Made by a program: the position numbers and the translations under genes. From NCBI GenBank assembly GCA_007449985.2, contig VIIQ02000043.1:328001-392000 (forward strand): a stretch of 64,000 bases of DNA, written 5' to 3'. This document shows positions 34,587 to 54,205 of the stretch, piece by piece (position 1 is the stretch's first letter; the number at the start of each line of letters is the position of its first letter). Under the pieces are notes generated by a model that was given only the letters and a program-made list of their open reading frames with translations, ran no database searches and was not told the DNA's origin. Origin of the DNA: Desmodesmus armatus (Eukaryota; Chlorophyta; Chlorophyceae; Sphaeropleales; Scenedesmaceae).

Positions 34587-35713
34587 ATGAACAGCCTGTT
34601 TTGCGCCGAGCTGGAGAGATGGTATATACAGTGACGTTGTTGTATGACAGGAACATAATTTACCTTGGATGCTGTACTACAGCAAAAATCTGAGTTTGAA
34701 GTGCGCGATCTGCTGACTAATGTTGACTAATAATGGGGGACTGCCCTGTTTCACCCCTGGGAGTTGGCATGGCATGCTCCTATACAACCACACACTGGTC
34801 ATGACAAGCAAGTCAACATTGCAAGTAAGTGAGCAGCACAAACAACGCCAGCAGTGCAGGCTGTGCCACTGGCTGTTGAACAGCGCTGTTCATGCTAGCA
34901 TGTAGGGGTGGGCCGGCCTGTTGCACCCATGGCTTAGAATTCAGGTCTCAGAAGACGCCATATTGTGCAGTGCGTCATGCACACTTCAAGCCTCAAGCTG
35001 CATGCTGCTGCTGTTTTGCTGCTGATGCTGGTGGCGTGGTGCTGCTGCTAGGACGCTGTAAGCCAACCCAAGAGCAGCTGACAGCCTGTGATATCATCAA
35101 TGTTGCAGTTCTTGTGAGAGGAGCAACATGTTGCAGCAGTAGCGATGGCAGCAGCTGCGCCGGCAGTACAAGGGACAGCAGTCCAGCCCAGACTGCCTAT
35201 GGTTGGCAGCTTCTGCCTGCTGCATTGCTTCCGTGCTGGGATGATGCTTGTGCAGGGCCAGATGTACACCAACAGCTGGTCAACACGGTGTGTGCAAGGG
35301 AGGGAAAATAAGGGTAGAGCCATGAAGCAGGAAGGGCAATTCAGCAGCAGGGTCAGTAGGGGCAGCACCACGGGGGGGGGGGGGGGGGCACATACCATGT
35401 GTGATCAGCATCAAGGCGATGATCACTCCCAGACAAAGTCAACCCCAGATTCATTTGCAGGTTCATTTCCAGGTCTGACCCAGCGTGCAGCAACACTGCC
35501 GTTGACAATCCCTGGCATCCACTGCAGTGGATGCCAGCTGGCAGCACATGTACAGTACAGTCACCTAGGCCTGTTTGGTGATGCTGGCAGCTTGCGTGCC
35601 TTTTTCAGCACATCTCACTCAATGTGAGAAAGTTTCAAAGATAAAAGCGATGCGGTGGGTGCGTTCACCAGACAGGTGCAGCTACTGACAGATACAAGGT
35701 GATTGTAAGGGCG
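34587..35713 (+). repeat. Repeat R1, copy 2, proximal part, cut by the retrotransposon
   Basis: It matches 19219-20300 closely and breaks at the retrotransposon. The match resumes at 49664, so the whole retrotransposon sits inside R1. Confidence 0.9.
35512..35537. repeat. Perfect 26-bp palindrome inserted in R1 copy 2
   Basis: CTGGCATCCACTG followed by its exact reverse complement. R1 copy 1 lacks about 25 bases at the matching place (near 20135). Confidence 0.9.
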
Positions 35714-36261
35714 TGACACGAGCAGCAGCTACACTGACCGATTCCTGCTGAGTGAGCAGTAATCCTCACAGGAAGGTTATGCTGTGTACAAGGCTATACA
35801 ACACATGCCTTAGCAGAATCAGTGTGATAGTTGACTAATCATGTTGAGTCAACAAGGACTCTGGGTGATATCAGATCATGCCAGATACTGCTGCGTGGCA
35901 GTGCTATTATTGGTGGTTAAGTGCTTGGGAGTTGTATGCGATGAGTTTGGTGCTGCGATGCACAGGTGAAGGATCACTGGCGGGTTCAGGGTTTACCGCC
36001 TGCAGTGCCGATTCCTTTGTGCCGCTGTGGTGCTCTGTGCGTCGCACTCGGCTTTGACAGTGCTTGGTGTAAACTTCTGGCAGTGTTTCCCGAGTACTCG
36101 CTCATTTGAATCCCCAATTCAGAGCGCACAGGTGCAGCAACCAGCCCCAGCAGCGACCTGTGGTCGAACCGGGTGCCTGAACATCACTCATACATTCATA
36201 CAGCGCATCAACACTTTGCAAAGGACTACAAGTGAGTATCTGCTACCCTCAGAGCAGCCAG
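35714..36261 (+). repeat. Terminal repeat A1 (5' LTR lacking its first ~50 bp)
   Basis: It is identical by eye to 49062-49609. It contains TGTAA (36068-36072), a likely polyadenylation signal, and a GTGAGT donor at 36232. It ends in GCAGCCA, just before the primer-binding candidate. Confidence 0.9.
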
Positions 36262-36262
36262 C

Positions 36263-36280
36263 TGGCTGCGAAGCATCATT
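36263..36280 (+). other. Candidate primer-binding site
   Basis: TGGCTGCGAAGCATC begins with the TGG expected for pairing with a tRNA CCA end and lies two bases after A1's terminal CA. The tRNA was not identified. Confidence 0.45.
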
Positions 36281-36480
36281 GCTGCAAGCTTTAGGCAGCA
36301 AACCACAAGCCGAGTGCCACATTTGCATTTATACACTTGTAGTAGCTCGCTAGTGCTCAACTGCGGGCGCTAGTGAAAGGGCCACTAGTGGGTGGTGGGC
36401 GCTGCCACGTGCCTGGCTACTGGGGGCATCGCGGCGCGTCTAGTAAGCATTAAGGTGTTTTAAATACTATTATAGTTTAC

Positions 36481-39400
36481 TTGCGTGGGTTTTTGGGAAG
36501 ATCCACTGGTGCATTTCAGAGCTGGCCCATTTCCAGGCTGGCTTCTTCAGCGGGCAGGCGTGGACAGCAGCCATTTCCAACGTCTGGATCGCTTTCGGAG
36601 CAGTTCCAATCGGTGGTTCGGCAAGCTGTTGGTCAAGTGCGTGCGTCGGAGGAAGCAGGTGGCGCTGACAACCAGGAGAATTTGGGCTCTGGACTGATCA
36701 GCTACTCTGGTGACCAGGATCAGCACATTGGCGAGCAGCAGGAGGACAGCACTCTTGTTTTCACCAATCCACTCTTCGAGCAGGCCACCAGCAGCATGGC
36801 TGGCCTTGGCAGTCTGTCTTTTGGGGGCAAGCTGGACTCTGGAAGCAGCAGCAGCAACTCCATGATACCAAAGCTATGGTCTGGACAGCCTGGAGTGGAT
36901 TCCTTCGGAGAATGGCAGCGTGCTGTCAGGTGGAACCAGGGCCAAAAGCGCAATGCAGCCATGGACAAGAAGCTGGACAAGCACTCTGGTGAAGAGATTG
37001 CCGAGATTGCCCAGTTGACTGTCATACGCTCCGATGGTGCCAAAGCAGTGGAGCAGGCTGGGCAGGTCTTGGAGAAACATGTCAGGGCTGCTGACCAGGG
37101 CTGGTATCCTCCACAGGAGCTGGAAGCAGCTGCTCTGGAGTTTGTGCGCAAGCGTCACCCCAACAGTGACTTGGCAGAGCAGACGCTGGCAGCATTGATC
37201 AAGGAGAGGTATGAGAAAGTACACATTGCTGCGGTTGCCAAGGGCTGGGCACTTGAGGACAGTGTTGGGCTGGAGCAGGCGCTGACAGCAAACTCTTCGC
37301 CACTTGTGCAGCAGCAGGACTCAACTGGCAACAGCAGCGGCGGTGGCGGCGGCGGCCTGCCTCCTGCAACAACAGATCCTATGCAAACTGCTATGCTGGG
37401 CTTCTTCAAAACGCTCAGTGACAGGCTGGTCAAGAGCACGCAGGACAATAAATACTTCATGACTGTGGGGATGAGGAAGTGGAGCCCTCACAGCTGTGTC
37501 ATGGAGCTTTTCTGGTGTATGATGGACGCAGCATACGGAGTGGCCAGCAGCAAGGAGCAGGCTGAGTTCTACCAGCTGCAGAGTGAGGGTTCCCAGGGCA
37601 GCAGGCAGGTGCAGGAGTTTGCGCAGCGCGTGGCAGTGCTGTATGAGAGTGTCAAGACACTGGGCATTGTGCCAGCAGGTGCAGACATTACCACCTTCTG
37701 CAAGGGTCTCAGCAATGCCAGCAGCAGGCAGTTTGCACGGCAGCGCAAGGAGGAGTACTATGCGTCCAACAGAACTCACATTGCGCTGGAATCACTAGCT
37801 GACCAAGTTCAGCAATTCGAGAAGAACCTCCACCAGGATGGCGTGCTGGCGCAGCAGGCATTGATTATGGTGGGCAACAGCAGTGTGGGAGCTGGAAGCA
37901 GCAAGAACGCCCGGCGCGCAGGTGAGGAGAGTACACTGGTGCAGACGCTGCTGCGTTCTCGCCGGGAGAATGAGGCTACACAGCAGTACCTCAGCAAGAT
38001 GGGTGCGCGTGAGAAGCTGCTCATCACCAAGGGCTTTGACATGGCGGAGATCGACCCCAAGGACCCCTCTGCTGTCTGCCTGGACTGTCCTGCAACAAAG
38101 CGGCCACACCTGAACCAAGACTGCAAGGGCAGGCGCATGGCGGGGCTGGCTATGGCAGCAGCGCAGGAGGGCAGCACTGCCAACAAAAGCAGCAGCAGCA
38201 TTGGCAGCAGCGCTGGAACCTTGGACGTCAACACGCTGGCAATCATGGTGCAGCAGGCAGTGGCTATGGCAGCAGCAGGAGCAGGCGCAGCACCGGCAGG
38301 ACTGGGGCAAGGGCTGCCAAGGGCTTACAACAAGCCAGAAAACAGCAGGGGTAACAGGGGCTATGGTGGCAGCAACGGCAGGCAGCAGCAGTACGCAGGG
38401 CCACCTGGCTTGGGTGTTGGGTCAGCAGTTATGGCGTGTGTCATCTGTGGCTTTGCCAAGGGCCACTCAGATGGTGTCTGCTATATGGACAAGCCAGAGC
38501 TGGCTCCAGAGAAGTGGGAGGGCCCCACGGAGCGTGCACCTGAGCAGGGGATGGTGCACTACATCTCCCGCTGCATGCAGCAGAAGCTGAAGCCACGGCT
38601 GGGGCGTTGCAAGGAGCTGCTGCGGAGGATGATGCAGAGCAACAAGCTGCCGCCAGCTATGCAGCAGTTCATTGGACAGCACACACAGCAGCAGCGGTAC
38701 ATGAACATGGCTTATGGCGCAGCAGCAGAGCCGTATGGGGCTTATGCAGCTTACATGACAGGCATGGGGTCTGCTGGTTCCAGCTACTGGCCCATGGGCG
38801 GCTCGGCAATGCAGCAGCCAATGGCAGGGCTGCCACCCTCTCACACACCGCTGGCTATCACTGGTGCAGTTGGCGACAGCACCGGTGAACAAGCAGCAAT
38901 GATGGTGCTGCCGGATGCAGGCGGGTATGTGAGTGAGGAGCAGCAGCAGGAAACAATGCACTTTGGGCCCTCTTTCTGTTATGTGGGCTTAGCAGACTGG
39001 CAGCAGGATCTGGCAGGTGGGCTCTTTGACTCAACGGGACATGAGTATGCACTGGTTGGGACACGTGCACAGGCAGGAGCTGGTGCAGTGCAGCAGGGCA
39101 GGGTTGTCAGGCAGCCTGTGCCCAAGGGCTTCCTACCACCCTCAGCTCTTCCTACAGACCTGAATGCCATGCGTTCCATGCCACGCATCACCAATGCACT
39201 GGTTGCTGGCTTAGGAGAGCTGGACGGCACCAGCAGGGGGCTACTGCACACGCTGCTTGACATTCAGCGGTTTGTGGCGAGCAGGGTATCTGCTTTTGGA
39301 GACCTTCTGGGTGTGCAGGAGGCTGGTGGAGCACATGGTAGCAGCAGTGCACAGCAGGGAGGGCAGCAGGCTCTGCAGGAGGCAACAGCAGCAAAGGGTA

Positions 39401-41223
39401 CTGCCAGCATGGTGTCCAGCAGCAGTTCTGGGCGCTGTGGCCCTGTTGCAGCAGCGGCGGCAAGCAGCCGCAGCCTCCTGGAGTCAGTCATGCTGCAGTA
39501 TGGCTTCAAGCCAGTGGCAATCGATTACACCCTACGCCAGTCAATGCCTGTGACGCTGGACTTCCTGGTGGGCACGAACAAACAGGAAGGATTGACACTA
39601 ACAACCCCGGATGGGCGTGATGTGCTAGTAGATATGGCGTTCCAGGACTCAGGTGCCACACTGCTGCTGTTCACTGAGGTGGCTTGTGGCGAGTGGGGTA
39701 CTTACATCTTCAGAACAAATCAGGTGCCGTCTGTCAAGGGCATTGATGGGCTGCCGTCCAAGAAGATTATCGGCAGGACAGGACCGCTGGTTCTCACACT
39801 TGCCAAGGGACACCCACTGGCAGCAGTCCTGCCCGTTCCGTGTGCTTGGGTGCTGGAGGGAGACGCGGGTGGCATGTTTAAGGTGTGCTTGGACAAGAAG
39901 ACACTGCTGCCGGTGTTTGGGTATGTGGATCCAGCCCTCAACATGCTATGCTTCCGTCCCAAGGCAGCACAGGGCAGGCTTGACATTATACACGGCATTC
40001 CCGTGCGTGGCTATGTCAAGAACGGCAACAGCAGCATCAGCAGTGGCAACATGGCGGCTGCCACCATCTGGGAGGAGGACAGCAGGGACACAGAGGAGCT
40101 TGAGGGCTCAGCAGCAGCAGTGCCGGGCATCAACTACAGGCCGTTTACTGCAGAGGAGAACACTCTAGCCAATGCAGAGCTCGAACGGCTGCTTCAGGCA
40201 GGAGTTATCACAGAACTGGATGCTGGGCCATTTGAAGTGAACGATCGCTGGTACTTGGACCACCTGGGCCTGAATGGTGGTGTGCCACAGCAGGTGCAAG
40301 AGGACTTGGACAGCAGCAGCTCCACTGGGTCAACCGCTATGCCTGAGCTGTGCACAGGCAGTGACAGCGACAGTCTCCCAGAGCTGGTGGATGCTTACAA
40401 CCCAGTGACTGCTGACATCGAGTATTTCAGCCCTCATGGCAGTGCAGCAGATGCTTGGCTGCAACAACAAACTGGGGGTGAGCACAACAAGCGCAGGCGC
40501 CGGCGTGGGCGCGGCCGCAAGGGCAGGGGGCGGCAGCAGCAGCAGCAACAGCAGGAGCAGGAGCAGGAGCAGGCAGAAGCACAGCAGCCACTGGAGGAGC
40601 CAGCAGGCAAGCTATGGGGCTTTGACTGGTCCAAGGCTGCTGGTCAGCTGCTGCCGGGCATCAGCTGGATCACGACACACATGGTGCTGCTGCTGCTAGG
40701 CATGTTCCACTTCTTTGTGGACTTGCCGCTGAGGAAGTACCCCTCAAAGATCATGCGTGGATTGGTCAGCATGGCGGGAGCAGCAGTGCGCCCAGGCAAC
40801 CCCATGCGCGCAAGGGAGTATAATGTGGCAGAACCTGTGCCCACTAACAACCTTGGCGACACACGGCGCGCACGCAAGCGTCGGCACAACAGAGGGCCCA
40901 GGCCAGGCCCTGGCTTGCAACCGACGGCAGAGCAGGACGCACCGCAAACAAAGGTCTCTGTGGTCGCCACAGTGCGTCACTCTGGCAAGGTCATCACTGC
41001 GCGCACAGTGCTGATGTGCCTGCTCTGTTTCTTCTCAGTGCTGTGCTCCACAGCAGCAATGCAGGTTACCAACAGCATTGGGGCAGCAGCCACTGGATCA
41101 GCACTGCAAGCTGGCTACTTTCCCCTGCCACATGGCGTCCCACCACACCTCAACATGCACTTGCTGCAGCAGGAGCTTGCCAACCTGCATTGCAGTAGGT
41201 TTCGCTGCTACAGCAGAGCATGA
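36481..41223 (+). CDS. Retrotransposon ORF1: gag, zinc knuckles and aspartic protease
   Basis: An open frame of 1580 codons. The first in-frame ATG is at 36796, so about 105 upstream codons may be untranslated or need another start. The N-terminal half is a capsid-like helical region. Zinc-binding sets follow: CLDCPATKRPHLNQDC near residue 533 and CVICGFAKGHSDGVC from residue 653 (CX2CX5HX4C, one residue longer than the usual retroviral knuckle). A retropepsin active site FQDSGATLLLF has its catalytic Asp at residue 1056. After the protease come an acidic/Ser segment, a basic RRRRRGRGRKGRGR stretch and two hydrophobic segments (about 1402-1420 and 1515-1535). It overlaps the polymerase frame by about 145 bases in the +1 frame. 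Confidence 0.88.
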   Translation: MRGFLGRSTGAFQSWPISRLASSAGRRGQQPFPTSGSLSEQFQSVVRQAVGQVRASEEAGGADNQENLGSGLISYSGDQDQHIGEQQEDSTLVFTNPLFEQATSSMAGLGSLSFGGKLDSGSSSSNSMIPKLWSGQPGVDSFGEWQRAVRWNQGQKRNAAMDKKLDKHSGEEIAEIAQLTVIRSDGAKAVEQAGQVLEKHVRAADQGWYPPQELEAAALEFVRKRHPNSDLAEQTLAALIKERYEKVHIAAVAKGWALEDSVGLEQALTANSSPLVQQQDSTGNSSGGGGGGLPPATTDPMQTAMLGFFKTLSDRLVKSTQDNKYFMTVGMRKWSPHSCVMELFWCMMDAAYGVASSKEQAEFYQLQSEGSQGSRQVQEFAQRVAVLYESVKTLGIVPAGADITTFCKGLSNASSRQFARQRKEEYYASNRTHIALESLADQVQQFEKNLHQDGVLAQQALIMVGNSSVGAGSSKNARRAGEESTLVQTLLRSRRENEATQQYLSKMGAREKLLITKGFDMAEIDPKDPSAVCLDCPATKRPHLNQDCKGRRMAGLAMAAAQEGSTANKSSSSIGSSAGTLDVNTLAIMVQQAVAMAAAGAGAAPAGLGQGLPRAYNKPENSRGNRGYGGSNGRQQQYAGPPGLGVGSAVMACVICGFAKGHSDGVCYMDKPELAPEKWEGPTERAPEQGMVHYISRCMQQKLKPRLGRCKELLRRMMQSNKLPPAMQQFIGQHTQQQRYMNMAYGAAAEPYGAYAAYMTGMGSAGSSYWPMGGSAMQQPMAGLPPSHTPLAITGAVGDSTGEQAAMMVLPDAGGYVSEEQQQETMHFGPSFCYVGLADWQQDLAGGLFDSTGHEYALVGTRAQAGAGAVQQGRVVRQPVPKGFLPPSALPTDLNAMRSMPRITNALVAGLGELDGTSRGLLHTLLDIQRFVASRVSAFGDLLGVQEAGGAHGSSSAQQGGQQALQEATAAKGTASMVSSSSSGRCGPVAAAAASSRSLLESVMLQYGFKPVAIDYTLRQSMPVTLDFLVGTNKQEGLTLTTPDGRDVLVDMAFQDSGATLLLFTEVACGEWGTYIFRTNQVPSVKGIDGLPSKKIIGRTGPLVLTLAKGHPLAAVLPVPCAWVLEGDAGGMFKVCLDKKTLLPVFGYVDPALNMLCFRPKAAQGRLDIIHGIPVRGYVKNGNSSISSGNMAAATIWEEDSRDTEELEGSAAAVPGINYRPFTAEENTLANAELERLLQAGVITELDAGPFEVNDRWYLDHLGLNGGVPQQVQEDLDSSSSTGSTAMPELCTGSDSDSLPELVDAYNPVTADIEYFSPHGSAADAWLQQQTGGEHNKRRRRRGRGRKGRGRQQQQQQQEQEQEQAEAQQPLEEPAGKLWGFDWSKAAGQLLPGISWITTHMVLLLLGMFHFFVDLPLRKYPSKIMRGLVSMAGAAVRPGNPMRAREYNVAEPVPTNNLGDTRRARKRRHNRGPRPGPGLQPTAEQDAPQTKVSVVATVRHSGKVITARTVLMCLLCFFSVLCSTAAMQVTNSIGAAATGSALQAGYFPLPHGVPPHLNMHLLQQELANLHCSRFRCYSRA

Positions 41224-41874
41224 TTCTGGCCAAGTGAAGTGGTACCAGGCCGACCCAGCAGCTCTGGACCAACTTGGGCCCGATGGCGCAACAGAAGATG
41301 TGCATGACGCCAGATGGACAGTGCACGATGAGGGCAAATGGATCTTGGGCAACCACCCAGATGCATCGCCTGCACAAATGGACCAGCTGGTGCAGATGCT
41401 GTTGGAGGAGCGAGGGGCATTTGCTTACAGTCTGCAGGACTTGCCTGGCTACACAGGGGACGTAGCTGACTTCAAACTGATCGATCCCTCCAAACGTATG
41501 TGGAGCGCACCCAGACGCTACACAGAAGAGGAGGTGAAGTTTGCCAAGGAGAAGGTGCAGGAGATGCTGGATGCGGGCATCGTAAAAGAAATTCCAACGA
41601 CCTGTCCGCATGCTTCAGCTATCACGTTGCCTATGAAGCGAGCACCCGACGGTAGCTGGACCGACAAGCGGTTCTGCATCGACCTGCGCAACGTCAACGG
41701 CAACACAGTGGTGGACAGTTACGGCCTGCCACTACCGGAAGAACTGTTTAGGCGAATTAGGGGGCACAAATTCTTGGTCAAGGCGGACTTTAGAGCGGGC
41801 TTTTGGCAGCTCAACCTGAGCGAAGAGGCGCAGCAGCAGGCGCGGCAGCAGAGCGAAGAGCGCGCAGCAGCACG
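41078..41874 (+). CDS. Polymerase polyprotein, first part (reverse transcriptase N-terminal)
   Basis: Frame +1 relative to ORF1, overlapping its end, so expression would need a +1 shift or splicing (TGCATTGCAG near 41195 is a possible acceptor). It encodes the reverse transcriptase fingers and palm start: MLDAGIVKEI, KRFCIDLRNVN and KADFRAGFWQL, the last with the first catalytic Asp. The frame is lost between about 41850 and 41874, where a 33-bp unit is repeated and the second unit has one extra base. Downstream domains continue in the third frame. The annotated end marks this break, not a natural stop. Confidence 0.85.
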
Positions 41875-44800
41875 TGGCCTTCCACGCACCCGACAGTGGC
41901 AAGCGACTGACCTACACGCGGCTGTGTTTTGGTCACGTGAACGCCACGGCAATTTTCCAGCGGGTTATGGAGAAGGAGCTGGCAGCAGCTGGTTTGTCTC
42001 ACTGTGCGGCGCCGTTCGTCGATGACGTTATCATGTGGTGCGACACCTGGGAGGACATGGTGACCAACTTCAGAACACTTCTACAGCATCTCAAGACAGT
42101 GGGCTTGCGCCTGCACCCTGCCAAGACAATCGTGGGTGCAGACTGCTTGCCTTACCTGGGTCACCTGGTATCAGCCAAGGAGTGCAAGCCGGAGCCAGCC
42201 AAGATTGCAGGCATCAAGGCACTGCAGCCACCCACCAGCCTCAAGCGCCTGCAGGCCCACCTTGGCCTGTTTAATTACTACAGGTGCTATGTGCCCAACT
42301 TTGCCATCATTGCCAGGCCGCTTTACAAGCTTATGGAGAAGGGTGCGCAGTACATCTGGAGTGATGACTGTAACCAGGCGTATGAGGGGCTTCGAACGGC
42401 GCTGTGCAAGAAGGGTTTGGGGCTCAGGCAGCCTGTGGATGGGCGCAGTTTTCATCTGTATGTCGACTGGAGCAACACGGGCATTGCAGCTGTGCTGAAT
42501 CAGGAGGCGGAGGATGGGACGGAGTACATGGTGGCCTGTGCCAGCAGGTCCCTCAATGCAGCTGAGCAGAACTATCCCGCCTGGAAAGGCGAGATGATGG
42601 CAGCAGTGTGGGGCGTCAAAATGTACAGGCCGTACTTGCACTCCAGGGAGTTCTATCTCCACAGCGACCACCGGGCGCTGTTATGGCTGCTGACACAGAA
42701 GACACCAGTGGGGCAGCAGATGCGTTGGATTCTGGCACTTCAGGAGTACCGCTTCTCACTGGTGCACAGGGCAGGCAAGTCAAACCCAGCTGATGTGCCT
42801 AGCAGGGAAGCCAGTAGCTGTGTGGCAGACACCACTGGAGCCAGGTTGGACACGGAGCTGCATGACTGGGTGCCCACTGTGCTTCTGCCAGACTGCAAAA
42901 CAACGGACCCACTGGTCTACACACATGACAGTCTGGCACTGGAGCTGGGCATTGGCAGCAAATCAACAGCAGCAGCTGGAGTGGCAGCAATGGCTTATGA
43001 GGAAACACCTGGTGACTGCCCAATCCTTCACAGCCCAGCAGCAGCGCTGGCGGCAGAACCAGCAGACAGCTACAGTCATGAACAGCTGGAGCACGAGGCG
43101 TTGTGTTGTCTACTGTGCAGCAACGAGTCTGCAGTGGACACATTCGCCCCAACCGCCGACTCATTGCTGGGGGGGGAGACAGCAGGACAACTTTTTGCTG
43201 ACGATGGCTGCTGCGTGGACACACAACACCCAGCAGTAGCTTGGCGGCAGCATGACCTACAGCAGGCAGCATCGGCGTGGGTCACATTGGCAGGGCTACA
43301 ACAGCCCCAACCGGACAGCTTCCAGCCAGGAGTGTACACAGGTGCATTGGACCCCTGGGGCGTAAGGGAGACACAAGGGCTGTGCACGGCTACTGTGGCA
43401 GACACGTTCTTCCCGGCAGCGCTGCAGCAGGGCATCGTGCTTTATGAGCCGTTTGGTGGCATCTGCGCAGGGCTGGAGATGGTGCTCAGGAGTGGCATCA
43501 CAGTCAAACAGTACCTGTACAGCGACATCAACCCCATGGCACAGCGGGCGGCGTTACACAGGATCAGGGTGCTGCAAAGCATGTATCCCAAGCAGCTACC
43601 GGAGGATGCTTTGGCTGGCAGTTTCAGCATTCTTCCCATGGATGTGAGGCACATCACCACACAGCAGCTCAGCAAGGCTGTCAGCGAGGCACCAGTCAAG
43701 CAATGGCTGGTAGTAGGAGGCTGGCCCTGTCAAGACTTCTCTGCAGCAGGCAAGTCACAGGGGCTTCGGGGTGATCGGGCTCAACTGCTGTTTGACCTGG
43801 TCAGGGTAGTGGGAGCGTTGCAACAGCTACTCCCACACCAGCCCCCAGCCTACCTGGTGGAGAATGTGCTCTTGCAGCAGCACAGGCTGAGCAGCATCAG
43901 TCAGCATGACTTCAATAAAATCAAGGCGTGCCTAGGGTTACCTGTGGTGCTGGACGCAGCACAGTTTGGCAGCCTTGCACATCGGGCGCGCAACTTCTGG
44001 TCCAACCTGGTTGGGCCCAGTCAACTGCGAGCAGCTTTGGCATTTGTCAAGAGGCCACCCGCACGCAGCGTACAGCTTGCCTTGGGACCTGGCAGGACCG
44101 CGCAACCTGTCAACCGACCAGACGCTGCTCCTCTCTACCCCTGCAACGCACCAGGGCAGCCTCGCGCAGCCTGGCCTACCTTGGTCAGCAGCGCACGCTC
44201 CTACGCCTTCAGGCCTGGCCAGCCTGGCAGTGTTTTGGACACAACGGTGCCTGCTGTAGTCAAGTGGGGCGAGCCAACAGCAGAGGAGAGAGAGGTAGCT
44301 CTGGGCTATCTTCCAGGCAGCACAGCAGCAGCAGGCCTCACACAAGCGCAGCGGTGTGCGTTGCTCGGTGAAAGCATGGATGCCAACACTTTGCAGGTGC
44401 TCATGGCCATCGCCAAGGCTTGGTTCCTGCGGGGCCTGCCTACCTCTACTGACTTGGCGACACGTGCATTCAGCGCACACGAAGGGGAACTGGCGCAGGA
44501 GTGGCCTGGCAGAGAGGCAACTGCAACCCCACATGGCTATCAGCAGCAGCTAGCCATGACAGCTGGCTACCAGGAGAACACTACGGCTACGAGCCAAGGT
44601 GACATCTGGGCCGACGATAAGACCCTGGAGTACATCAGAACAGGGCAACTCCCACAAGACCTGGCAGCCAGCCAGGCAGCACGTATCAAGCGACGTGCAC
44701 GCTCATACTACTTCAAGGACCAGCAGCTGATCAGGAGGATGCCAGATGGCACCGACAGGCTGGTACCTCCACCACAGGCGCGTGCTGGTCTCATACGGCA

Positions 44801-46862
44801 GCAACACGAGATGTGTGGGCACTTTGGCAGGCGGCGCACCTCAGCCATGCTACTCAGTAAGCACTGGTGGTATGGGTTACTGGCGGACGTTGCAACAGTG
44901 CTGTCACGCTGCGAGCACTGCAGCAGGGTGCATGCCAGCTTCACCGCCAAGCCGGAGGAGCTGCGCCCCATTCCAATCAGCAGCATGGGTTTCAGGTGGC
45001 ACGTGGACACAGCTGGGCCACTACCCAAGAGTGCAAAGGGCAACAAGTATGTGCTGGTGTGTGTTGAGGCATTCAGCAAGTACCTGGTGGTGGTGCCGAT
45101 GGAAAACGACAAGGCGGAGACCACTGCATACCACTTCTTGCACGGTGTATTGGCACACTTTGCAGCACCAGGGCAGGTGGTGACAGACTCAGGGACAGAG
45201 TTTGAGGGCGAGTTTGCCAAGCTCCTGGAGGATGCGCTCATCGATCATGCCATCATCAGTGCAGACCACCCTCAGGCCAATGGTCAGGCAGAGAAGGCTG
45301 TGCACATCGTCAAGCGGGCGCTTACCAAAATGGCAGTGGCAAGGCACAGTGTCAAGCAGTGGGATGAGGACTTGGCATGGCTGGCACTGGGCTACCGCTG
45401 CTCTCCACAGGCCAGCACAGGCCACAGCCCGTACGAACTCATGTATGCACGTCCACCGGTCATTCCACCTGCAGTGAAGGAGCTTGTCAGCACACCCCTG
45501 GACATCAGTGCTGAGGCGGCTGTCAAGGACCTACTGCAGCGTAAGGAGCGGCTAAAGCAGCAGGTGCCCATTGCGCTGGAGAACCTGGCGATTGCACAGC
45601 ACAGGGATCAGCGCCGTTACCTGCAGCTGCGTGCGCCTGACTACAAGCCACGCGTTCACAGGTTTATGGTGGGTGACTACGTCTACACTCAGCAGCTTAA
45701 CCGGGCAAGCAAGCTACAGCCCAGGGCCAAACCCCTCATTCTGCGAGTTCTGGAGGTGCGGGACTCTGGGGTACTGCACCTGCAGGGGCGCTGTGGCCGG
45801 ACCATTGAGGTGCACATGTCTCACTGTGCACCCTGCCACTTGCCTGATATCGACGGCGGCATCGACCCACTGCTGGTGGACAACACAGATGATGTGGTCT
45901 GTGAGGTATGCAGCACCAGCGACAACGGGGCCGAGCTCATGCTGTGTGACGTGTGCAACAGCGGATACCATACCTACTGCTTGCAACCACCACTCAGCAG
46001 TGTGCCTGACGGTGTGTGGCTGTGCCCGGAGTGTGTGGACGCTGGCTACACAGAACAGGATGCTGCTGGCAGGGAGCAGCAGCGGCAGCAGCTACAGGAG
46101 CGGGAGGCCAGGCCAAACATATTCCCCGGCGCGCAAATGAAGCGCAGGGACGAAGCAGCACATGCGCTGCATGGCCGACTGGTGCTGAAGGCGTTCACGG
46201 ATCCAGCCACCGGGAAAGGCAGGAAGTACTGGGGCAGGATCTACTTCAAGGATGCTGAGTCACGCCCATACTACTTCCGAGTGGTGTACGAAGATGGGGA
46301 CTCTCACCACGCCACCATGGCAGGCATCAAGCGCTACCTGCAGCCGGAGGATGCAGTGCTGCCACCTGGGGCCAGCATTCCTACACCAGAGTCACTGGCA
46401 GCAGCAGTGGCGTACGCACGACAGCTGGTCAGCAGGGTTGCTGGCGGTTCAGTAGCTGTTCCTTCCACAAGGGTCTCACCGGCAGATGTGCAGTTGCTGC
46501 AGCTTACAGTGCAGATGTCCCTGGTTCAAGCCCTGGTGGACCCACTAACACTCAACACCCAGTGGCAGCAGGTTTTTGCTGGGCGACCGTTCACTGTGGG
46601 CTGCGGGCCTGTACAGCACGGCGCTACAGCCATCATCATTACACCTACAGCACCCTTTGTGCTTCATGCAGTTTTCACAGCACTGCAAATGAGGCCATTG
46701 GTGGTGCTCTGTTACGTGCCTTCACTGGCGTTTCCAGCTGACATCCACCCTCTGTTCAGTGCACTCAAGCAGCAACGGCGAGCAGCAGCATTCAGGGGCA
46801 AGAATGGCTGCTGGCTGGTGCTCAGTAGGCAAGGCATAGACATCGACAACTGGCTGCATTGA
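41874..46862 (+). CDS. Polymerase polyprotein, main part: RT, RNase H, DNMT3-like methyltransferase, integrase, PHD, Tudor-like
   Basis: 1662 codons. Reverse transcriptase FVDD at residues 48-51. RNase H about 190-310 (YVDWS, KGEMMAAVW, HSDHRALLWL). Cytosine-5 methyltransferase about 520-840: motif I EPFGGICAGL, motif IV GGWPCQDFSAAG (catalytic Cys 619), motif VI VENV, motif VIII HRARNFW, motif X LGESMDANTL; HRARxFW and the motif order resemble DNMT3. Integrase: HHCC-type zinc region near 970-1020, then D (WHVDTAG), D1105 (TDSGTEF) and E1140 (GQAEK). A C4HC3 PHD finger starts near 1340 (CEVC, LMLCDVCNSGYHTYC, WLCPEC). Next is a stretch with YFRVVYEDGDSHHA like Tudor/Agenet-type readers, and a C-terminal 150 residues of unknown role. 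The upstream end is the frame break within the reverse transcriptase. Confidence 0.9.
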   Translation: MAFHAPDSGKRLTYTRLCFGHVNATAIFQRVMEKELAAAGLSHCAAPFVDDVIMWCDTWEDMVTNFRTLLQHLKTVGLRLHPAKTIVGADCLPYLGHLVSAKECKPEPAKIAGIKALQPPTSLKRLQAHLGLFNYYRCYVPNFAIIARPLYKLMEKGAQYIWSDDCNQAYEGLRTALCKKGLGLRQPVDGRSFHLYVDWSNTGIAAVLNQEAEDGTEYMVACASRSLNAAEQNYPAWKGEMMAAVWGVKMYRPYLHSREFYLHSDHRALLWLLTQKTPVGQQMRWILALQEYRFSLVHRAGKSNPADVPSREASSCVADTTGARLDTELHDWVPTVLLPDCKTTDPLVYTHDSLALELGIGSKSTAAAGVAAMAYEETPGDCPILHSPAAALAAEPADSYSHEQLEHEALCCLLCSNESAVDTFAPTADSLLGGETAGQLFADDGCCVDTQHPAVAWRQHDLQQAASAWVTLAGLQQPQPDSFQPGVYTGALDPWGVRETQGLCTATVADTFFPAALQQGIVLYEPFGGICAGLEMVLRSGITVKQYLYSDINPMAQRAALHRIRVLQSMYPKQLPEDALAGSFSILPMDVRHITTQQLSKAVSEAPVKQWLVVGGWPCQDFSAAGKSQGLRGDRAQLLFDLVRVVGALQQLLPHQPPAYLVENVLLQQHRLSSISQHDFNKIKACLGLPVVLDAAQFGSLAHRARNFWSNLVGPSQLRAALAFVKRPPARSVQLALGPGRTAQPVNRPDAAPLYPCNAPGQPRAAWPTLVSSARSYAFRPGQPGSVLDTTVPAVVKWGEPTAEEREVALGYLPGSTAAAGLTQAQRCALLGESMDANTLQVLMAIAKAWFLRGLPTSTDLATRAFSAHEGELAQEWPGREATATPHGYQQQLAMTAGYQENTTATSQGDIWADDKTLEYIRTGQLPQDLAASQAARIKRRARSYYFKDQQLIRRMPDGTDRLVPPPQARAGLIRQQHEMCGHFGRRRTSAMLLSKHWWYGLLADVATVLSRCEHCSRVHASFTAKPEELRPIPISSMGFRWHVDTAGPLPKSAKGNKYVLVCVEAFSKYLVVVPMENDKAETTAYHFLHGVLAHFAAPGQVVTDSGTEFEGEFAKLLEDALIDHAIISADHPQANGQAEKAVHIVKRALTKMAVARHSVKQWDEDLAWLALGYRCSPQASTGHSPYELMYARPPVIPPAVKELVSTPLDISAEAAVKDLLQRKERLKQQVPIALENLAIAQHRDQRRYLQLRAPDYKPRVHRFMVGDYVYTQQLNRASKLQPRAKPLILRVLEVRDSGVLHLQGRCGRTIEVHMSHCAPCHLPDIDGGIDPLLVDNTDDVVCEVCSTSDNGAELMLCDVCNSGYHTYCLQPPLSSVPDGVWLCPECVDAGYTEQDAAGREQQRQQLQEREARPNIFPGAQMKRRDEAAHALHGRLVLKAFTDPATGKGRKYWGRIYFKDAESRPYYFRVVYEDGDSHHATMAGIKRYLQPEDAVLPPGASIPTPESLAAAVAYARQLVSRVAGGSVAVPSTRVSPADVQLLQLTVQMSLVQALVDPLTLNTQWQQVFAGRPFTVGCGPVQHGATAIIITPTAPFVLHAVFTALQMRPLVVLCYVPSLAFPADIHPLFSALKQQRRAAAFRGKNGCWLVLSRQGIDIDNWLH

Positions 46863-47037
46863 GCACTGGATGCTCGGTTCATTATCTCGGTCCGGTTTCG
46901 CTAAGACGGCGCAGTAGTAGCTTAGCACCAAGGGGCTTCAAGGAAGGGGGGGCATGATAGTGCATACTGCAGGCTGACTAAGCAGGTGATTAGCTGACAC
47001 GCTCAACCTTCTGTCCTGCACTGCTAACCTCTCCACT

Positions 47038-48273
47038 GTGCAGGGCGTGTTCTCATTTATGCCCGACACAGCACCTGGTGCCAGCAGTGTAATAGAGGAG
47101 CAGCTGGACTACGGGGAGGACTCCTGGGAGGAGTTGCAGGAGCAGCCAGTCAGTGAGGAAGTGGCACTGCTAGGATCTGGAGAGGAGGAGTTGCCTCAGC
47201 AGCCAGACAGTGAGGGTGCAGAGCAGCCGGACTTTGGGGGCGAGGGCTTGCCTGAGGAGCCCATGCAGCAGGACATAGCAGCTCACATGGACCTGCCTGC
47301 AGCAGTAGCGGAGGACCCAGCCGGCCAACTGGTCACGAGGGTACGCGCAATCTACCATGGGCTTCGGCGGGACAGGGATGAGCTGAGGGGTATTGACAGG
47401 AGCTTGTGGCAGCTTACACTAGAGCAGCAGCGATGGGTGGAGCGCGAAGCAGCAATGGACGTGCTTGGCATCACCCGTGTTGCATGTCACCTTGGCGGCT
47501 ATGCCAACGGGATGTCAGAGGACCTCACAGTTGCGGCAAGGCGGGCAAAGGAGGCAGACCAGCACATGCTGCAGAATGCAGATACAGACTTGGAGGCAGA
47601 AGCAGCACGGGCAGCTGCAGCAAGGGAGGCTGCAGCAAGGGAGGCTGCAGCAAGGGAGGCTGCAGCAGCTGAAGCACTTGCAAAGGAGGCAGCAGCGAAG
47701 GCAAGGGCTGCAGAAGGGAACCGCGCAGTAGAGCCGGCAGCAAACCAGGAGGCACCTGCAGCAGTAGGCTTTGATTGGAGTCGCGTGAAACTACCCTTAG
47801 AGTTTGTGCCTCCGCAGCGCGGAAGCAGCAGCAGCGGCAAGGGTAATGATGGGGAGCATACGCAGGAGCGCAGCGGGAGCCGCGGCCGCAGCCCCAATGC
47901 CGACAACAGGGAGCGCAAGCCCAAACGCAGCAGGAGCCGCAGCAAGGGCCGCGGCAAGGACGACAACCAGGACCGTGGTGGTCGCAGCAGCAGCAAGTAC
48001 GACATGGACGGGCCTCCCAAACCCGCAGACGTACCTGAGTACGAGCTCCCTCCTTTGGGCTTTACCCGCAACAACTGCAGGGTGGGCAAGGACGGTTATG
48101 GATTAGCAGGAGTTAGGGATTACCAGGGCACGTGGTTCCCAGTGGCAGCACACGACCCAGCGCACAACCCGGAGAAGAACCCAAAACTTAACGACACATG
48201 CCCAATCTGCTTCCTGCGAACAGCATACAAGCAGGATCGCCTGGCATACCGTTCCAACACCCGGCGCAGGTAA
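47038..48273 (+). CDS. Retrotransposon ORF3: acidic, coiled-coil and Arg/Ser-rich protein
   Basis: It begins about 175 bases after the polyprotein stop; the first ATG is at 47059. The N-terminal third is acidic (Glu/Asp/Gln), followed by an Ala/Glu/Arg helical repeat (AAREAAAREAAARE) likely to form a coiled coil. An RS-like basic segment comes next (KPKRSRSRSKGRGK), and the C-terminus carries CPIC. It is immediately preceded by a good 3' splice site: TGCTAACCT branch-like, pyrimidines, GTGCAG at 47032-47037. A spliced subgenomic RNA from the leader donor at 36232 is therefore plausible. I know no homolog. An RNA-binding or nucleocapsid-like role would fit the composition but is a guess. Confidence 0.7.
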   Translation: MQGVFSFMPDTAPGASSVIEEQLDYGEDSWEELQEQPVSEEVALLGSGEEELPQQPDSEGAEQPDFGGEGLPEEPMQQDIAAHMDLPAAVAEDPAGQLVTRVRAIYHGLRRDRDELRGIDRSLWQLTLEQQRWVEREAAMDVLGITRVACHLGGYANGMSEDLTVAARRAKEADQHMLQNADTDLEAEAARAAAAREAAAREAAAREAAAAEALAKEAAAKARAAEGNRAVEPAANQEAPAAVGFDWSRVKLPLEFVPPQRGSSSSGKGNDGEHTQERSGSRGRSPNADNRERKPKRSRSRSKGRGKDDNQDRGGRSSSKYDMDGPPKPADVPEYELPPLGFTRNNCRVGKDGYGLAGVRDYQGTWFPVAAHDPAHNPEKNPKLNDTCPICFLRTAYKQDRLAYRSNTRRR

Positions 48274-48995
48274 TGATATGGCAGAGACAGCAGGTGCTGC
48301 CGCAGCAATTAGCAGCAGCAGCAGCAATTGCTGGGCCGTCTGGATTGGCCTTTGGTAGCGACAACAGCTTTTGGCAGCAGTGGTTTAAGGCCGTCTGGAG
48401 TGGCCTCTGCTGGAGCGATGGTTTGTGCCAGCTGGGGGTGCCCAGACTGGCAAGCAGCTTTGCAGGAGGTTGGGAGCAGCAGTTGATTTATTGGACATTG
48501 TGGATAGTAGCTTTGCCTTTCACATGCGAACGATGTGGGGGCATCTGTCCTGCTTGCATGTTGGTTGGGATTTAGCAGCAGTGAGCGCAAAGGGCCACTG
48601 TTTGTGCTTGTCAAGCTCAGTGAAATATGCTTCCTGAGTAGTTAAGTGAGTGCTGCATGACTCACTTGTGTGCAGCAGATCCAGCAGTGGCTGGGTTTGT
48701 TTGTCAATTATGTGTGTGTGTTTTATTGACTGTGCAATGCACAAACATCACATGCGTTGTAGTGTGTGTGCCCAGCGTCTGGATGTGCCTAGATGCCGTG
48801 GTGAGAAAAGACAAAAAACAAAAATGTCTGTTGACTTGTGTTGTGTGGTCACAGCAGCATTCTCTGCAAGCAATGTGCAGTTTTCCCCGTGCGTTGCGCA
48901 TCAGCTGTGTGCTATCAGCTGTTGCATGTTGCTTTTGGATTGGGTTGTTTGTAGCTGCTCAATGTGAGTACTGCTGCTGTGTAGTGTTACCCCAG
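48274..48995. other. Retrotransposon 3' internal region without a gene
   Basis: Only short overlapping frames are present. I see no further coding signal before the polypurine tract. Confidence 0.6.
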
Positions 48996-49011
48996 CAGCA
49001 GTGGGGGGGAG
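48996..49011 (+). other. Polypurine tract candidate
   Basis: GCAGCAGTGGGGGGGAG directly precedes TGTACACCCC, a typical LTR start. This places the true 3' LTR start at 49012, 50 bases before A2. Confidence 0.65.
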
Positions 49012-49061
49012 TGTACACCCCTAGCAGCAATCTGAGCAGGTCAGTGTTCTACTGCGTCAGC
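49012..49061 (+). repeat. Terminal repeat B1
   Basis: The first 50 bases of the probable LTR. The segment from ACCCCTAGCAGC to TGCGTCA recurs as B2 at 49620-49663. It ends in GTCAGC, so with A2 it forms the palindrome GTCAGCTGAC. Confidence 0.85.
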
Positions 49062-49609
49062 TGACACGAGCAGCAGCTACACTGACCGATTCCTGCTGAG
49101 TGAGCAGTAATCCTCACAGGAAGGTTATGCTGTGTACAAGGCTATACAACACATGCCTTAGCAGAATCAGTGTGATAGTTGACTAATCATGTTGAGTCAA
49201 CAAGGACTCTGGGTGATATCAGATCATGCCAGATACTGCTGCGTGGCAGTGCTATTATTGGTGGTTAAGTGCTTGGGAGTTGTATGCGATGAGTTTGGTG
49301 CTGCGATGCACAGGTGAAGGATCACTGGCGGGTTCAGGGTTTACCGCCTGCAGTGCCGATTCCTTTGTGCCGCTGTGGTGCTCTGTGCGTCGCACTCGGC
49401 TTTGACAGTGCTTGGTGTAAACTTCTGGCAGTGTTTCCCGAGTACTCGCTCATTTGAATCCCCAATTCAGAGCGCACAGGTGCAGCAACCAGCCCCAGCA
49501 GCGACCTGTGGTCGAACCGGGTGCCTGAACATCACTCATACATTCATACAGCGCATCAACACTTTGCAAAGGACTACAAGTGAGTATCTGCTACCCTCAG
49601 AGCAGCCAG
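49062..49609 (+). repeat. Terminal repeat A2
   Basis: Same length (548 bp) and same sequence by eye as A1. With B1 it forms a complete LTR of about 597 bp (TGTACA...CAGCCA). Confidence 0.9.
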
Positions 49610-49663
49610 TTCCATCTGCTACCCCTAGCAGCAATCTGAGCAGGTCAGTGTTCTACTGCGTCA
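49610..49663 (+). repeat. Junction filler and terminal repeat B2
   Basis: After A2 come about ten bases not found elsewhere in the element (TTCCATCTGCT), then a second copy of the LTR start lacking its first five or so bases. The element ends at TGCGTCA, followed by GGCG. Confidence 0.85.
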
Positions 49664-50077
49664 GGCGCTGAGGATTATTGCCTGCACCACTATTGGGATG
49701 TTGGTGCATCCTGCTTGCGCCTTGGAGACCGGGAGGTGGCGAGAGACGAAGCATGGTGGAAATTCAAGGGGACAAGCCCGCTTACAGCCCCTTTTGCTGA
49801 GGTCCTGACCCGGTCAAAGTGTACGACAGGTAGGACCCAGGCTTAGAAATGCACGCACACCTGCGTATTTAGGCTGATGCAGTGCGTCGGATGCGTCATA
49901 AACCAGGCCAGTCAATTGGTAGCAGCACTCGTGTACTGTCTGGGACACAGTTTGCCCCAGTCGCTCAATACTCAATCGCAGCCGGTGGGTCACATACCTG
50001 CAGTCTTTTGCCTGTTTTTTGACGATACAACTGGTGTCAAGCGGCTGTAGTCAAGAAGCACGAGTAAAGCTTCGACG
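49664..50077 (+). repeat. Repeat R1, copy 2, distal part
   Basis: It matches 20301-20721 and leads directly to the start codon of disintegrin-like copy 2. The retrotransposon has therefore moved the rest of the upstream region about 14 kb away. Confidence 0.85.
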
Positions 50078-53000: not shown

Positions 53001-54205
53001 TTGGTGGTTCTGGTGGGAGCTGCTGTGCTGGCGGGAGCTTGATTATTGGTGGCGTCTGCAGGTGCGCTCCTACGTGTGGGGGTGTGGGCAGGAGCATCTT
53101 TTGTAGAGTATAGGCCTCAAGTTGCCCTGCTGGTCATTCTTGCTGGTTAGGGTTACGACTGGCAGATGCCGGGCTGCTGTCCTTCAGTACAAGGCCTGGG
53201 CAGCCGCTGCGTGCAGTCTGCTGACAGCCTGCAAGGTGTCACTCACCCGCTGTCATATGTAGTGACACATGCCACTGCTGCTGCCATTGGTACCACTGCT
53301 GCTGCTGCCGCTGCTACCACTGCTGCTGCTGCTGCAGGTCTGCCCCCAAGGGAAGCTGCCAGCTGGACAGCGTGTGTGATGGTGTGAACGCCGACTGCCC
53401 TGCGTCCCCTCACAAGCTGCACGGCACCCCCTGCCCCTGGTGAGTGCAGTGACAGACAGCTGCATACCGACACCAGCTTGTGCTTGAGGTGCCGCTTGAG
53501 GTGCTGGCAGCATGTTGAGCTGGGTGGCCGGTGCTGCCTGGTGGGGTTAGAGGCTGATGTTAGCAGAGGGTTTTGCAATTGGGTCTTGTGGATAGCAGCG
53601 ATTGTGTTAGCTGCAGCGTAGTCATGAGCCATCGATGTCCATGTGATATCACAGTGATGTTGTTGAGCGACATGAGCTCTCGAGCCTCATAGCTACAGGT
53701 GCAAAAGTGATAGGTTCAGTAGTACTGATTGTTCCACTGAGGGGTATGGGCGGCCGGTCCTGTGTTGAACACCAGCATTGTACATTACAATAATGATTGC
53801 ACGCCAGCTGCACTTCAAGTCTTGATTGCAACTGTTGTGAAGCTCAAACGCAACTCATGCTGCTTCCTCTATTCCACGTACAGGTCCCCAAGCCGCTCCT
53901 ACCTGATGGGTGAAGCTGTTGACACACACAACGCCAAGGTGGTGGCTGTGTCAGCACACGACGCCGCAGCATGGCTGACCGGCAAGCCTGCTTACGACAC
54001 CGAGTGGCCCGAGTGTAAGGGAGTGTGCATTGAGGGAGCCTGCGCCCTCCGATGGAACCACCCCGCTTGCTGCTACGTCCACCCTCGTGACAGTTACGGC
54101 TACAGGGAGGACAATGGGAGGCCTTATGAGAGCCAGGGAGAGAAAGATTTGTCTGTCAGCAGCTTTGGCTACTGGCGCAGCAGGAACTGGTACTGTTGGA
54201 AGTGA
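50078..54205 (+). CDS. Disintegrin-like secreted protein, copy 2, interrupted by a LINE
   Basis: Exons 50078-50204, 50689-51028 plus 52272-52746 (one exon split by the LINE), 52973-53061, 53338-53439 and 53884-54205. Without the LINE and one copy of its 8-bp duplication, lengths sum to 485 codons with no break. The signal peptide is MGSHVPARLC plus a Leu-rich core. Exon 2 contains an in-frame 15-bp repeat encoding APTI units. The Glu/Ala-rich linker near 52535-52580 is longer than in copy 3. The C-terminal half has the disintegrin-like SCQLDSVCDGVNADCP and ends WRSRNWYCWK. In its present state it would be truncated inside the LINE, where the plus-strand frame stops near 51093. Confidence 0.8.
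50951..51015 (+). repeat. In-frame 15-bp repeat (ACAATTGCACCGACA)
   Basis: About four units encode Pro-Thr-Ile-Ala in exon 2 of copy 2. Copy 3 lacks them and has a Pro/Ala stretch instead. Confidence 0.9.
51029..52263 (-). mobile_element. 5'-truncated LINE with (GATTT)n tail
   Basis: The 8-bp duplication ACTATACA flanks it (51021-51028, 52264-52271). In minus orientation the 3' end is GCTACAGGTGTAACTTT followed by three GATTT-type units. The minus-strand frame 52263-51418 is the C-terminal end of a LINE polymerase, with the CCHC-type motif CPSCKQHAETPTHFLLEC and an upstream ETLSLNAFHSHT region. The 1.2-kb length shows strong 5' truncation. The clade is uncertain; short simple-repeat tails occur in CR1/L2- and I-like elements. 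Confidence 0.85.
53645..53712 (+). mobile_element. LINE 3' end remnant in the last intron of copy 2
   Basis: It shares GATATCAC, CATGAGCTCT and CATAGCTACAGGTG with the LINE 3' end, plus orientation, at the position equivalent to the remnant in copy 1 (30170). Confidence 0.6.

Follow-up and report, generated by a model that had tools for sequence, protein, structure and literature searches.

Organization of the element and its Pol polyprotein

The window, a stretch of 64,000 nucleotides, contains a retroelement spanning approximately positions 35714-49663, far beyond the interval 41874..46862 given in the preliminary description; repeats mark its termini, and it is flanked by a GGCG duplication of the 4-bp target. 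Its features are as follows.

35710..35713: 5' target site duplication GGCG, the same as 49664-49667
35714..36307 (+): A1, the left terminal repeat, starting with TGAC; 35714-36261 is identical to 49062-49609
36454..41223 (+): ORF1, gag-protease-like, 1589 aa
41015..42025 (+): frame with the N-terminal part of the reverse transcriptase (RT), which is frame-broken in the window copy
41898..42749 (+): C-terminal RT and RNase H (Pfam; match to Ty3 Gag-Pol 7q5b, 1.6e-54)
43377..44399 (+): DNMT3-like cytosine-5 methyltransferase (DNMT) domain, residues 520-860 (EPFGG, GWPCQ, ENV, AHRxRxFW, C-terminal motif)
44766..44933 (+): integrase H2C2 zinc-binding domain (Pfam)
44994..45473 (+): integrase catalytic core, D, D-X34-E (Pfam; PFV integrase match, 1.9e-23; conservation in relatives)
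45900..46034 (+): PHD finger, C4HC3 (Pfam; resembles PHD structures that contain the N-terminal tail of H3)
46173..46307 (+): Tudor-like segment (sub-threshold Pfam match; strands in the model)
46410..46859 (+): C-terminal tail, a probable degenerate relative of an amino-methyltransferase-like domain
46990..48273 (+): ORF3, 427 aa, acidic, Ala/Arg-rich and RS-rich
49003..49010 (+): polypurine-tract-like G run immediately 5' of B1, as also in the C78 and C190 elements
49011..49059 (+): B1 repeat, ending in GTCA
49060..49061: GC spacer, forming the palindrome GTCA-GC-TGAC with B1 and A2 in 11/11 copies; the GC spacer is also present in C78
49062..49609 (+): A2 repeat, without its final 45 nt in the window copy
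49610..49620: 11 nt of filler between A2 and B2; together with the first B2 bases it repeats an 11-nt stretch of A2 at 49586
49621..49663 (+): B2 repeat, the right end, ...GTCA
49664..49667: 3' target site duplication GGCG

The Pol frame (41820-46862, + strand, 1680 aa) gave Pfam matches, in this order, to RVT_1 (4e-9), RNase H (3e-30), DNA_methylase (PF00145; 1.9e-10, residues 630-726), Integrase_H2C2 (1e-10), rve (3e-9), and PHD (8.5e-12). These matches bear out the earlier claim of a single polyprotein that joins RT, RNase H, cytosine-5 methyltransferase, integrase, and a C4HC3 PHD finger, with the methyltransferase between RNase H and integrase, except that the N-terminal part of the RT lies in the other frame. 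The RT-RNaseH-integrase order of Ty3/Gypsy Pol is present, and the D,D,E integrase noted earlier is near invariant in relatives (D 193/193, D 194/194, E 190/191, with D-X34-E spacing). The window copy differs from family members L042 and L043 by a net 34 nt in length and by 2-4 mismatches, with the frame change falling inside the RT. ORF1 contains two hydrophobic segments (residues 1406-1424 and 1512-1532), along with what we take to be two CX2C..H..C motifs and a DSGA protease-like motif at residue 1065; in the Pfam scan, ORF1 had no gag or protease match and ORF3 no match.

The zinc ligands of the PHD finger are intact in the window Pol and in 176/177 relatives. In fold comparisons, MOZ-type double PHDs, which read acylated H3K14, tied with BAZ2A-type PHDs, a result that weighs against the presumed membership of the finger in the class that reads H3K4me0. 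The preliminary description had also named a Tudor-like segment, for which the evidence is divided: the match to PTM_DIR17_Tudor (PF21743) was below threshold (E 0.0015, 18.7 bits versus a cut-off of 27.2), while the model has a run of strands (block pLDDT 74-83) that suggests a barrel. The C-terminal tail reads as a decaying second methyltransferase-like domain. In a few relatives it is amino-methyltransferase-like and its motifs are intact, but it is degenerate in the window family, where an iterated profile detected it and a one-step profile missed it. The best match of the tail profile in the PDB had an E-value of only 0.22, and the fold search gave no match for the tail, whose model has a pLDDT of <50 over much of its length, the structure matches being taken up by the PHD.

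Terminal repeats and a proposed route of integration

The anatomy of the terminal repeats is unusual and had been overlooked in the preliminary description. Integrated copies read A-coding-B-GC-A-B between TG..CA termini and do not carry the same LTR on both sides, since the left end is A1 and the right end is B1-GC-A2-B2. The extra 45 nt of A1 are also present in A2 of other copies. A 4-bp target duplication was found in 6/8 copies with both flanks, and no primer site for a tRNA was recognized by eye after A1. Whereas the B1-GC-A2 palindrome is invariant, the A2/B2 junction differs by 1 to many nucleotides among otherwise near-identical copies, with filler and a tail-to-tail joint seen. A total of 26 3' ends (11 + 15) were inspected, and the junction could be classified in 19; among the others, C77 and C634 are without B2, C633 is at a contig end, C591 starts inside B2, and for C20, C61, and C718 the place was not shown. 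C621 and C589, whose 3' flanks are identical or almost so, have junctions that differ by one A, and some one-base differences may be assembly errors. The 5' end of the C190 element was not reached, and its repeat anatomy was read without its ends.

We favor, with a probability of about 0.55, the reading that this is a Ty3/Gypsy-type retrotransposon, with a Pol of RT-RNaseH-DNMT-integrase-PHD-Tudor-like-tail, that inserts as an opened circle, its DNMT self-marking the element and its PHD tethering it. The repeat anatomy suggests a two-LTR circle opened by the DDE integrase within an LTR. Reverse transcription would yield ordinary linear cDNA with an LTR of the form B-GC-A (B after the polypurine tract, A before the internal region), although such an LTR depends on the assumption of circle opening. 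Joining of the cDNA ends would leave the variable A2/B2 (LTR-LTR) junction, and integrase would then cut the GTCAGCTGAC palindrome (GTCA-GC-TGAC) within one LTR, and insertion of the opened circle would duplicate 4 bp of the target. If so, an old question, whether integrase makes productive use of circle junctions, becomes testable.

It is also conceivable, though we consider it somewhat unlikely, that the A-coding-B-A-B arrangement forms as in DIRS/PAT elements, with template switching at the internal B1-A2 completing the ends without end joining and integrase taking up the linear TGAC..GTCA product. The repeat order formally equals that of DIRS and KnitGypsy-Dnmt3 (PMC5890265, legends), and the invariance of B1-GC-A2 fits this route. 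The 2/7 copies of the first set without a target duplication match and the two copies without B2 count against circle opening. Template switching is, however, difficult to square with the variable A2/B2 junction, its filler, and its tail-to-tail joint, or with the position of B directly 3' of a G-rich tract, as expected of an LTR after a polypurine tract. At Pfam sensitivity, moreover, no tyrosine recombinase match was found in four window ORFs, and all 8 places with PF00589 in the genome are away from the element copies.

Conservation and possible role of the methyltransferase

The DNMT query matched the genome 94 times, 33 of them at top score across the full query, although some contigs among the 33 may duplicate one locus. 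The domain is thus family-wide, and 16 of these 33 sit within an open frame of 1937 aa that does not share the RT break of the window copy. It also persists in diverged subfamilies, down to about 45%, and in relatives from other genomes. An apparent pattern of intact RT with hypermutated DNMT in C129, C558, C287, and C687 was dropped: their nucleotide identity is 98.2-99.7% with small indels, and the apparent divergence arises because of frame breaks, perhaps assembly errors. The family is young and gypsy-type, with green algal relatives. Names of algae among the best 120 of 139 matches were Monoraphidium and Chromochloris (the latter our own reading of the code Chrzof1), and Scenedesmus appeared as fragments in a separate search. 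The "volvocalean" label of the preliminary description is unproven; three tandem TTTTAGGG units had 0 matches in the genome. No row was named Klebsormidium among the best 120 of 139 and best 120 of 143 relatives or in the search that yielded Scenedesmus, most rows being without an organism name.

The earlier DNMT3-like assignment held up, as profile searches found a methyltransferase fold and, among cytosine-5 methyltransferases in the PDB, DNMT3 was closest by both profile and fold, with about 20-25% identity to DNMT3A/B in structural alignments. The profile scores were nevertheless a near tie (53 bits for DNMT3A versus 51 for the bacterial HhaI-type protein P0209). The motif order is canonical, with AHRxRxFWxNL in motif VIII as in DNMT3A/B; the domain differs from these enzymes in having no ADD or PWWP Pfam match, with a separate PHD instead, and in motif IV, which in relatives is mostly PCQ or ECQ, rather than the PCN of the DNMT3A alignment. 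Across 209 related polyproteins, the catalytic Cys (206/207), the Glu-Asn (208/208), and the motif VIII arginines are nearly invariant, and in motif I Ala replaces Gly in 21/195. A dN/dS table of 15 chosen pairs, with its main range drawn from six pairs with a DNMT dS of 0.7-1.0 and five saturated pairs omitted, placed the DNMT under purifying selection; it evolves faster than the RT (0.03-0.13) in the compared pairs, and four near-identical pairs gave 0.14-0.32. Chance is excluded by the E-values, the conservation over the 209 polyproteins, and these ratios. The family has been shown to carry a conserved, selected DNMT3-like catalytic domain. A viral source was unsupported, since the IMG/VR scan gave distant matches only, at 20 loci with 25-48% identity over the best segment.

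The role of this enzyme in the element is our inference. Under the circle-opening reading, the DNMT would act within the same Pol complex, placing de novo 5-methylcytosine on the new insertion, on its cDNA or circle precursor, or on both, while the PHD, presumably a reader of H3 tails that lack K4 methylation, might dock the complex on such chromatin, much like the ADD domain of DNMT3. New copies could thus begin marked like silent host DNA, evading detection or deleterious expression. If true, a single protein of a mobile element combines its copying and insertion with DNA methylation and histone reading, a natural setting in which to ask why selfish DNA should carry an enzyme thought to silence it. 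More tentatively, the whole green-algal clade might integrate via circles, with a DDE integrase cutting the LTR palindrome, a DNMT3-like enzyme (joined in some relatives by a second, amino-type methyltransferase) marking the circle, and a PHD then docking it on H3K4-unmethylated chromatin; the circle-junction route, discarded for retroviral integration, would then be the usual one for these elements.

A rather unlikely alternative is that the DNMT acts mostly in trans on host chromatin or genes rather than on the cDNA of the element, and perhaps even serves as the de novo methyltransferase of a host lacking its own DNMT3. Consistent with this idea, 60 of 64 genomic PF00145 matches are at element loci, the translated parts of those outside elements at C146 and C11 resemble DNMT1 by eye, and the accessible portion of PMC9998398 reports no DNMT3 in the green algae of MMETSP. 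These counts come from a six-frame search, however, which misses intron-split genes, and chlorophyte ChloroDNMTs have been reported (PMC12344493). The CpG observed/expected ratio is low both inside the element (0.47) and in the flanks (0.48 and 0.47), a general CpG poverty that favors the trans idea, but the equality of the depletion also weighs against it. Since the element matches its flanks, there is no extra methylation-type decay, and excess CpG depletion as a sign of self-methylation was unsupported. This genome also hints that in some algae DNMT3-like genes may belong to transposons and not to the host.

Still more doubtful is the proposal that the domain no longer methylates DNA and is retained because it methylates RNA or plays a structural role in the cDNA complex. 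In motif IV, Glu replaces Pro in 70/209 relatives, a change linked to ENV becoming ENT (P,V 103; E,T 55) that could signify altered chemistry, and KnitGypsy-Dnmt3 yielded no methylation in yeast, a result its authors judged inconclusive (PMC5890265). Against it stand the near-invariant catalytic residues described above and the standard PCQ and ENV of the window family. That the domain is a one-off insertion or dead relic is refuted for the family by the full-length matches and diverged relatives and, despite the broken RT frame of the window copy, can be set aside.

Relationship to known elements

This kind of element is already known, because a DNMT3 within a Gypsy Pol has been published for Klebsormidium nitens (KnitGypsy-Dnmt3; de Mendoza et al. 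2018, PMC5890265), and the novelty of the domain combination is smaller than the preliminary description claimed. Compared by description only, both have a Gypsy-type Pol, a non-permuted Dnmt3-like domain under purifying selection, and DIRS-element repeats with Gypsy domains (Fig. 4 legend of PMC5890265). The host there is a charophyte, whereas the named relatives here are chlorophytes; the window element has PHD and Tudor-like modules, neither word occurring in the main text of PMC5890265; and its anatomy is resolved to TG..CA ends, a GC palindrome, 4-bp duplications, and a variable A2/B2 junction. Within the open-access literature searched for prior reports, the additions to the text of PMC5890265 are three named chlorophyte genera, the PHD and Tudor-like modules, a tail that reads as a decaying second methyltransferase-like domain, and the resolved A-coding-B-GC-A-B anatomy. 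Citing others, the accessible part of PMC6338049 states that green algae are among the hosts of Ty3/Gypsy and DIRS retrotransposons that encode DAM or DCM methylases. The two enzymes are not told apart there, and no DNMT-bearing Gypsy element of a chlorophyte is named, but the statement disfavors full novelty. An algal Gypsy with a chromodomain is described in PMC12542154, the accessible part of which mentions no DNMT, and the word "methyltransferase" is absent from the main text of PMC8226300.

SymbioDIRS-Dnmt3 and SymbioLINE-Dnmt of Symbiodinium likewise carry DNMTs under purifying selection, the former with A-coding-B-A-B repeats, and the SymbioDIRS DNMTs gave de novo CG methylation in yeast (PMC5890265). 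These belong to other element classes in a dinoflagellate host and have a tyrosine recombinase or LINE endonuclease rather than a DDE integrase. DIRS/PAT elements, some of which carry adenine methyltransferases (PMC5890265), share the split direct repeats; the window element differs in its DDE integrase and 4-bp target duplications, with no tyrosine recombinase found. With Ty3/Gypsy elements and chromoviruses it shares the protease-like motif, RT-RNaseH-integrase, and a chromatin-binding module after the integrase, but that module is a PHD plus Tudor-like segment instead of a chromodomain, a DNMT lies between RNase H and integrase, and the repeats are not a simple LTR pair.

The element and its reading frame

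The DNMT-bearing Ty3/Gypsy-type element in the window is real, widespread, and conserved, and it is a variant of the KnitGypsy-Dnmt3 kind. Its parts are as follows.

35714-49663: the element
36454-41223: ORF with a protease-like motif and two hydrophobic, membrane-like segments (residues 1406-1424 and 1512-1532) between that motif and the RT
41015-42025: frame holding the start of the RT
41820-46862, + strand: open frame of 1680 aa
46410-46859: second, amino-methyltransferase-like domain, at the C terminus
46990-48273: third ORF, 427 aa, downstream of pol, acidic and then Ala/Arg- and RS-rich

The preliminary description had placed RT, RNase H, DNMT, integrase, PHD, and Tudor-like domains in one frame. 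Pfam found RVT_1, RNase H, DNA_methylase, Integrase_H2C2, rve, and PHD in that order in the 1680-aa frame, each above its cut-off; the PTM_DIR17_Tudor match fell below the cut-off, and in this copy the RT starts in the other frame. By sequence alone, Ty3 Gag-Pol was the nearest match of the RT-RNase H segment (1.6e-54) and foamy virus integrase that of the element's integrase (1.9e-23, the best PDB match).

The DNMT, first described from this copy, recurs in the family: the genome holds 33 top-scoring full-length matches to the segment, 16 of them within a 1937-aa open frame, and a 34th on contig C718 (100%), counts that may be inflated where one locus sits on two contigs (C559 and C560 have a common 3' flank). 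The window copy differs from two near-identical copies by a net length of 34 nt and 2 to 4 mismatches. Given this length difference, the frame of the RT start, and the 1937-aa frames elsewhere, the RT of the window copy is broken and intact copies exist.

Among the 33 relatives with >250 aa before the RT, 26 had at least one hydrophobic segment there, compared with 7/33 control stretches, and 16 had two or more. The third ORF had no match in Pfam; ORFs of similar size lie downstream of pol in several other copies.

Conservation among relatives and setting in the genome

Homology searches (E up to 1e-5) gave the best 120 of 139 and the best 120 of 143 relatives, mostly metagenome polyproteins; those with an algal name among the matches listed were Monoraphidium, Scenedesmus, and Chromochloris (as we read the code Chrzof1). 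One row labelled as a bacterial MAG (P0087) was taken for contamination. The conservation set comprised 208 polyproteins plus the open frame of family copy L042, many of them truncated: the DNMT was present in 209, the integrase in 197, the PHD in 177, the RT in 176, and the Tudor-like part in 145, and the order RT-DNMT-INT-PHD(-Tudor-like) held wherever the domains were present. The catalytic Cys of the DNMT was kept in 206 of the 207 rows with a letter at the site, its Glu-Asn in 208/208, the motif VIII arginines in 206/209 and 207/209, the integrase D/D/E in 193/193, 194/194, and 190/191, and the PHD ligands in 176/177. One motif I Gly was Ala in 21/195. The Pro beside the catalytic Cys in motif IV was Glu (GWECQ) in 70/209, coupled to a change of ENV to ENT (P,V in 103; E,T in 55); chemistry or substrate may be altered.

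RT and DNMT distances were correlated (r = 0.72 across 95 proteins, with 0.12 the highest value in 500 permutations). In the six pairs with a DNMT dS of 0.7-1.0, dN/dS was 0.09-0.19 for the DNMT versus 0.03-0.13 for the RT, and 0.09 to 0.60 for the Tudor-like part. The amino-methyltransferase-like domain was common to many relatives (e.g., the tails of P0052, P0057, P0060, and P0055), with both motifs intact in 7/102 and degenerate in the rest, the window family included. A G-patch domain (PF01585) lay beside other modules in the relatives P0053, P0076, P0100, and P0302.

In this genome, a DNMT match accompanied each full-length RT match of ≥44% on its contig, but none of three short RT fragments (C535, C526, and C527). 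In the full-length RT class that ranks next (36%), the integrase follows the RT by ~580 nt, too short a distance for a DNMT, so ordinary Gypsy elements without a DNMT occur in the same genome. PF00145 gave 64 matches, 60 of them at element loci, in a search that can miss genes split by exons; among the four outside elements, the pieces on C146 and C11 are, by eye, DNMT1-like exon fragments. CpG depletion was the same inside and outside the element.

As described by de Mendoza et al. (2018, PMC5890265), KnitGypsy-Dnmt3 has a Dnmt3-like domain in Gypsy Pol, DIRS-like repeats, and purifying selection. The main text of that paper does not mention PHD, Tudor, chlorophyte, Chlamydomonas, or Volvox, whereas the element here has a PHD and a Tudor-like part. 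Passages elsewhere report that no DNMT3 was found in the green algae of MMETSP (PMC9998398) and that Ty3/Gypsy and DIRS elements encoding DAM and DCM are present in green algae, among others (PMC6338049). We saw no account of this element in chlorophytes in the literature searched. The role of the methyltransferase and readers is one that we infer.

Terminal repeats and the proposed opening of a circle

The terminal anatomy is the strongest new evidence of this analysis. A 548-nt repeat, 100% identical, lies near both ends, which nevertheless do not form an ordinary LTR pair: A1 stands at the left, and a second repeat, B, flanks the right-hand A on either side. The 3' side was compared in ten further copies, and the 5' side as well in seven of these. 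The order B1-GC-A2-B2 was found in eight of the ten, C77 and C634 being without B2, and the B1-GC-A2 junction read GTCA-GC-TGAC in 11/11 copies, window included. Five of the seven copies with both flanks had an exact 4-bp duplication (GGCG, TCCT, CTGT, CCAA, and GGAC); C629 and C99 had none. The A1 and A2 of C629 belong to different length types, as if recombined. The C78 subfamily, whose DNMT is ~62% identical, has the same repeat order and GC spacer, TG..CA ends, and the duplication TTGT; in the C190 element, a B-(A)-B pattern was seen as well.

A G-rich, polypurine-like run lies directly 5' of B1 in all three subfamilies examined. If this run is the polypurine tract, the LTR arising from reverse transcription would be B-GC-A, and a two-LTR circle opened within one LTR at GTCA/GC/TGAC would give exactly the integrated order. 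A2/B2 would then be the LTR-LTR joint, expected to be imprecise, with B1-GC-A2 precise. This is what is seen: among 19 classifiable ends, A2/B2 read CACA/GTG on 9 contigs, CACAA/GTG on 6, CACTA/GTG on 2, and CACAAGCCA/AGTG on 1, not all of these contigs being independent (C560 and C559 share a 3' flank, and those of C621 and C589 are nearly the same), and B1-GC-A2 was invariant in the 11 copies compared. Differences of a single A may stem from assembly noise. The remaining end, that of the window, has lost 45 nt and gained an 11-nt filler, which together with the start of B2 repeats 11 nt from A2, as in templated end joining. On C634 (copy L022), two elements lacking B2 meet at their A2 ends in tail-to-tail orientation, as expected if ends of linear cDNA get joined.

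The circle-junction model is reportedly that of Panganiban and Temin. HIV and foamy virus integrases are reported to cleave the palindromic two-LTR junction (PMC1905944 and PMC1180852). A tyrosine recombinase had no match in the four window ORFs scanned, and the 8 places with PF00589 in the genome were all away from element copies.

Two direct-repeat pairs (87-90%) flank the element at nearly equal spacing, 23.4 kb, and may represent an older element hosting the retrotransposon or dispersed repeats; a third pair lies to one side.

29918-30081 and 53314-53477: first flanking pair
30477-30776 and 53880-54179: second flanking pair
54281-54694: direct repeat pair of 192 nt, 99%, spacing 222
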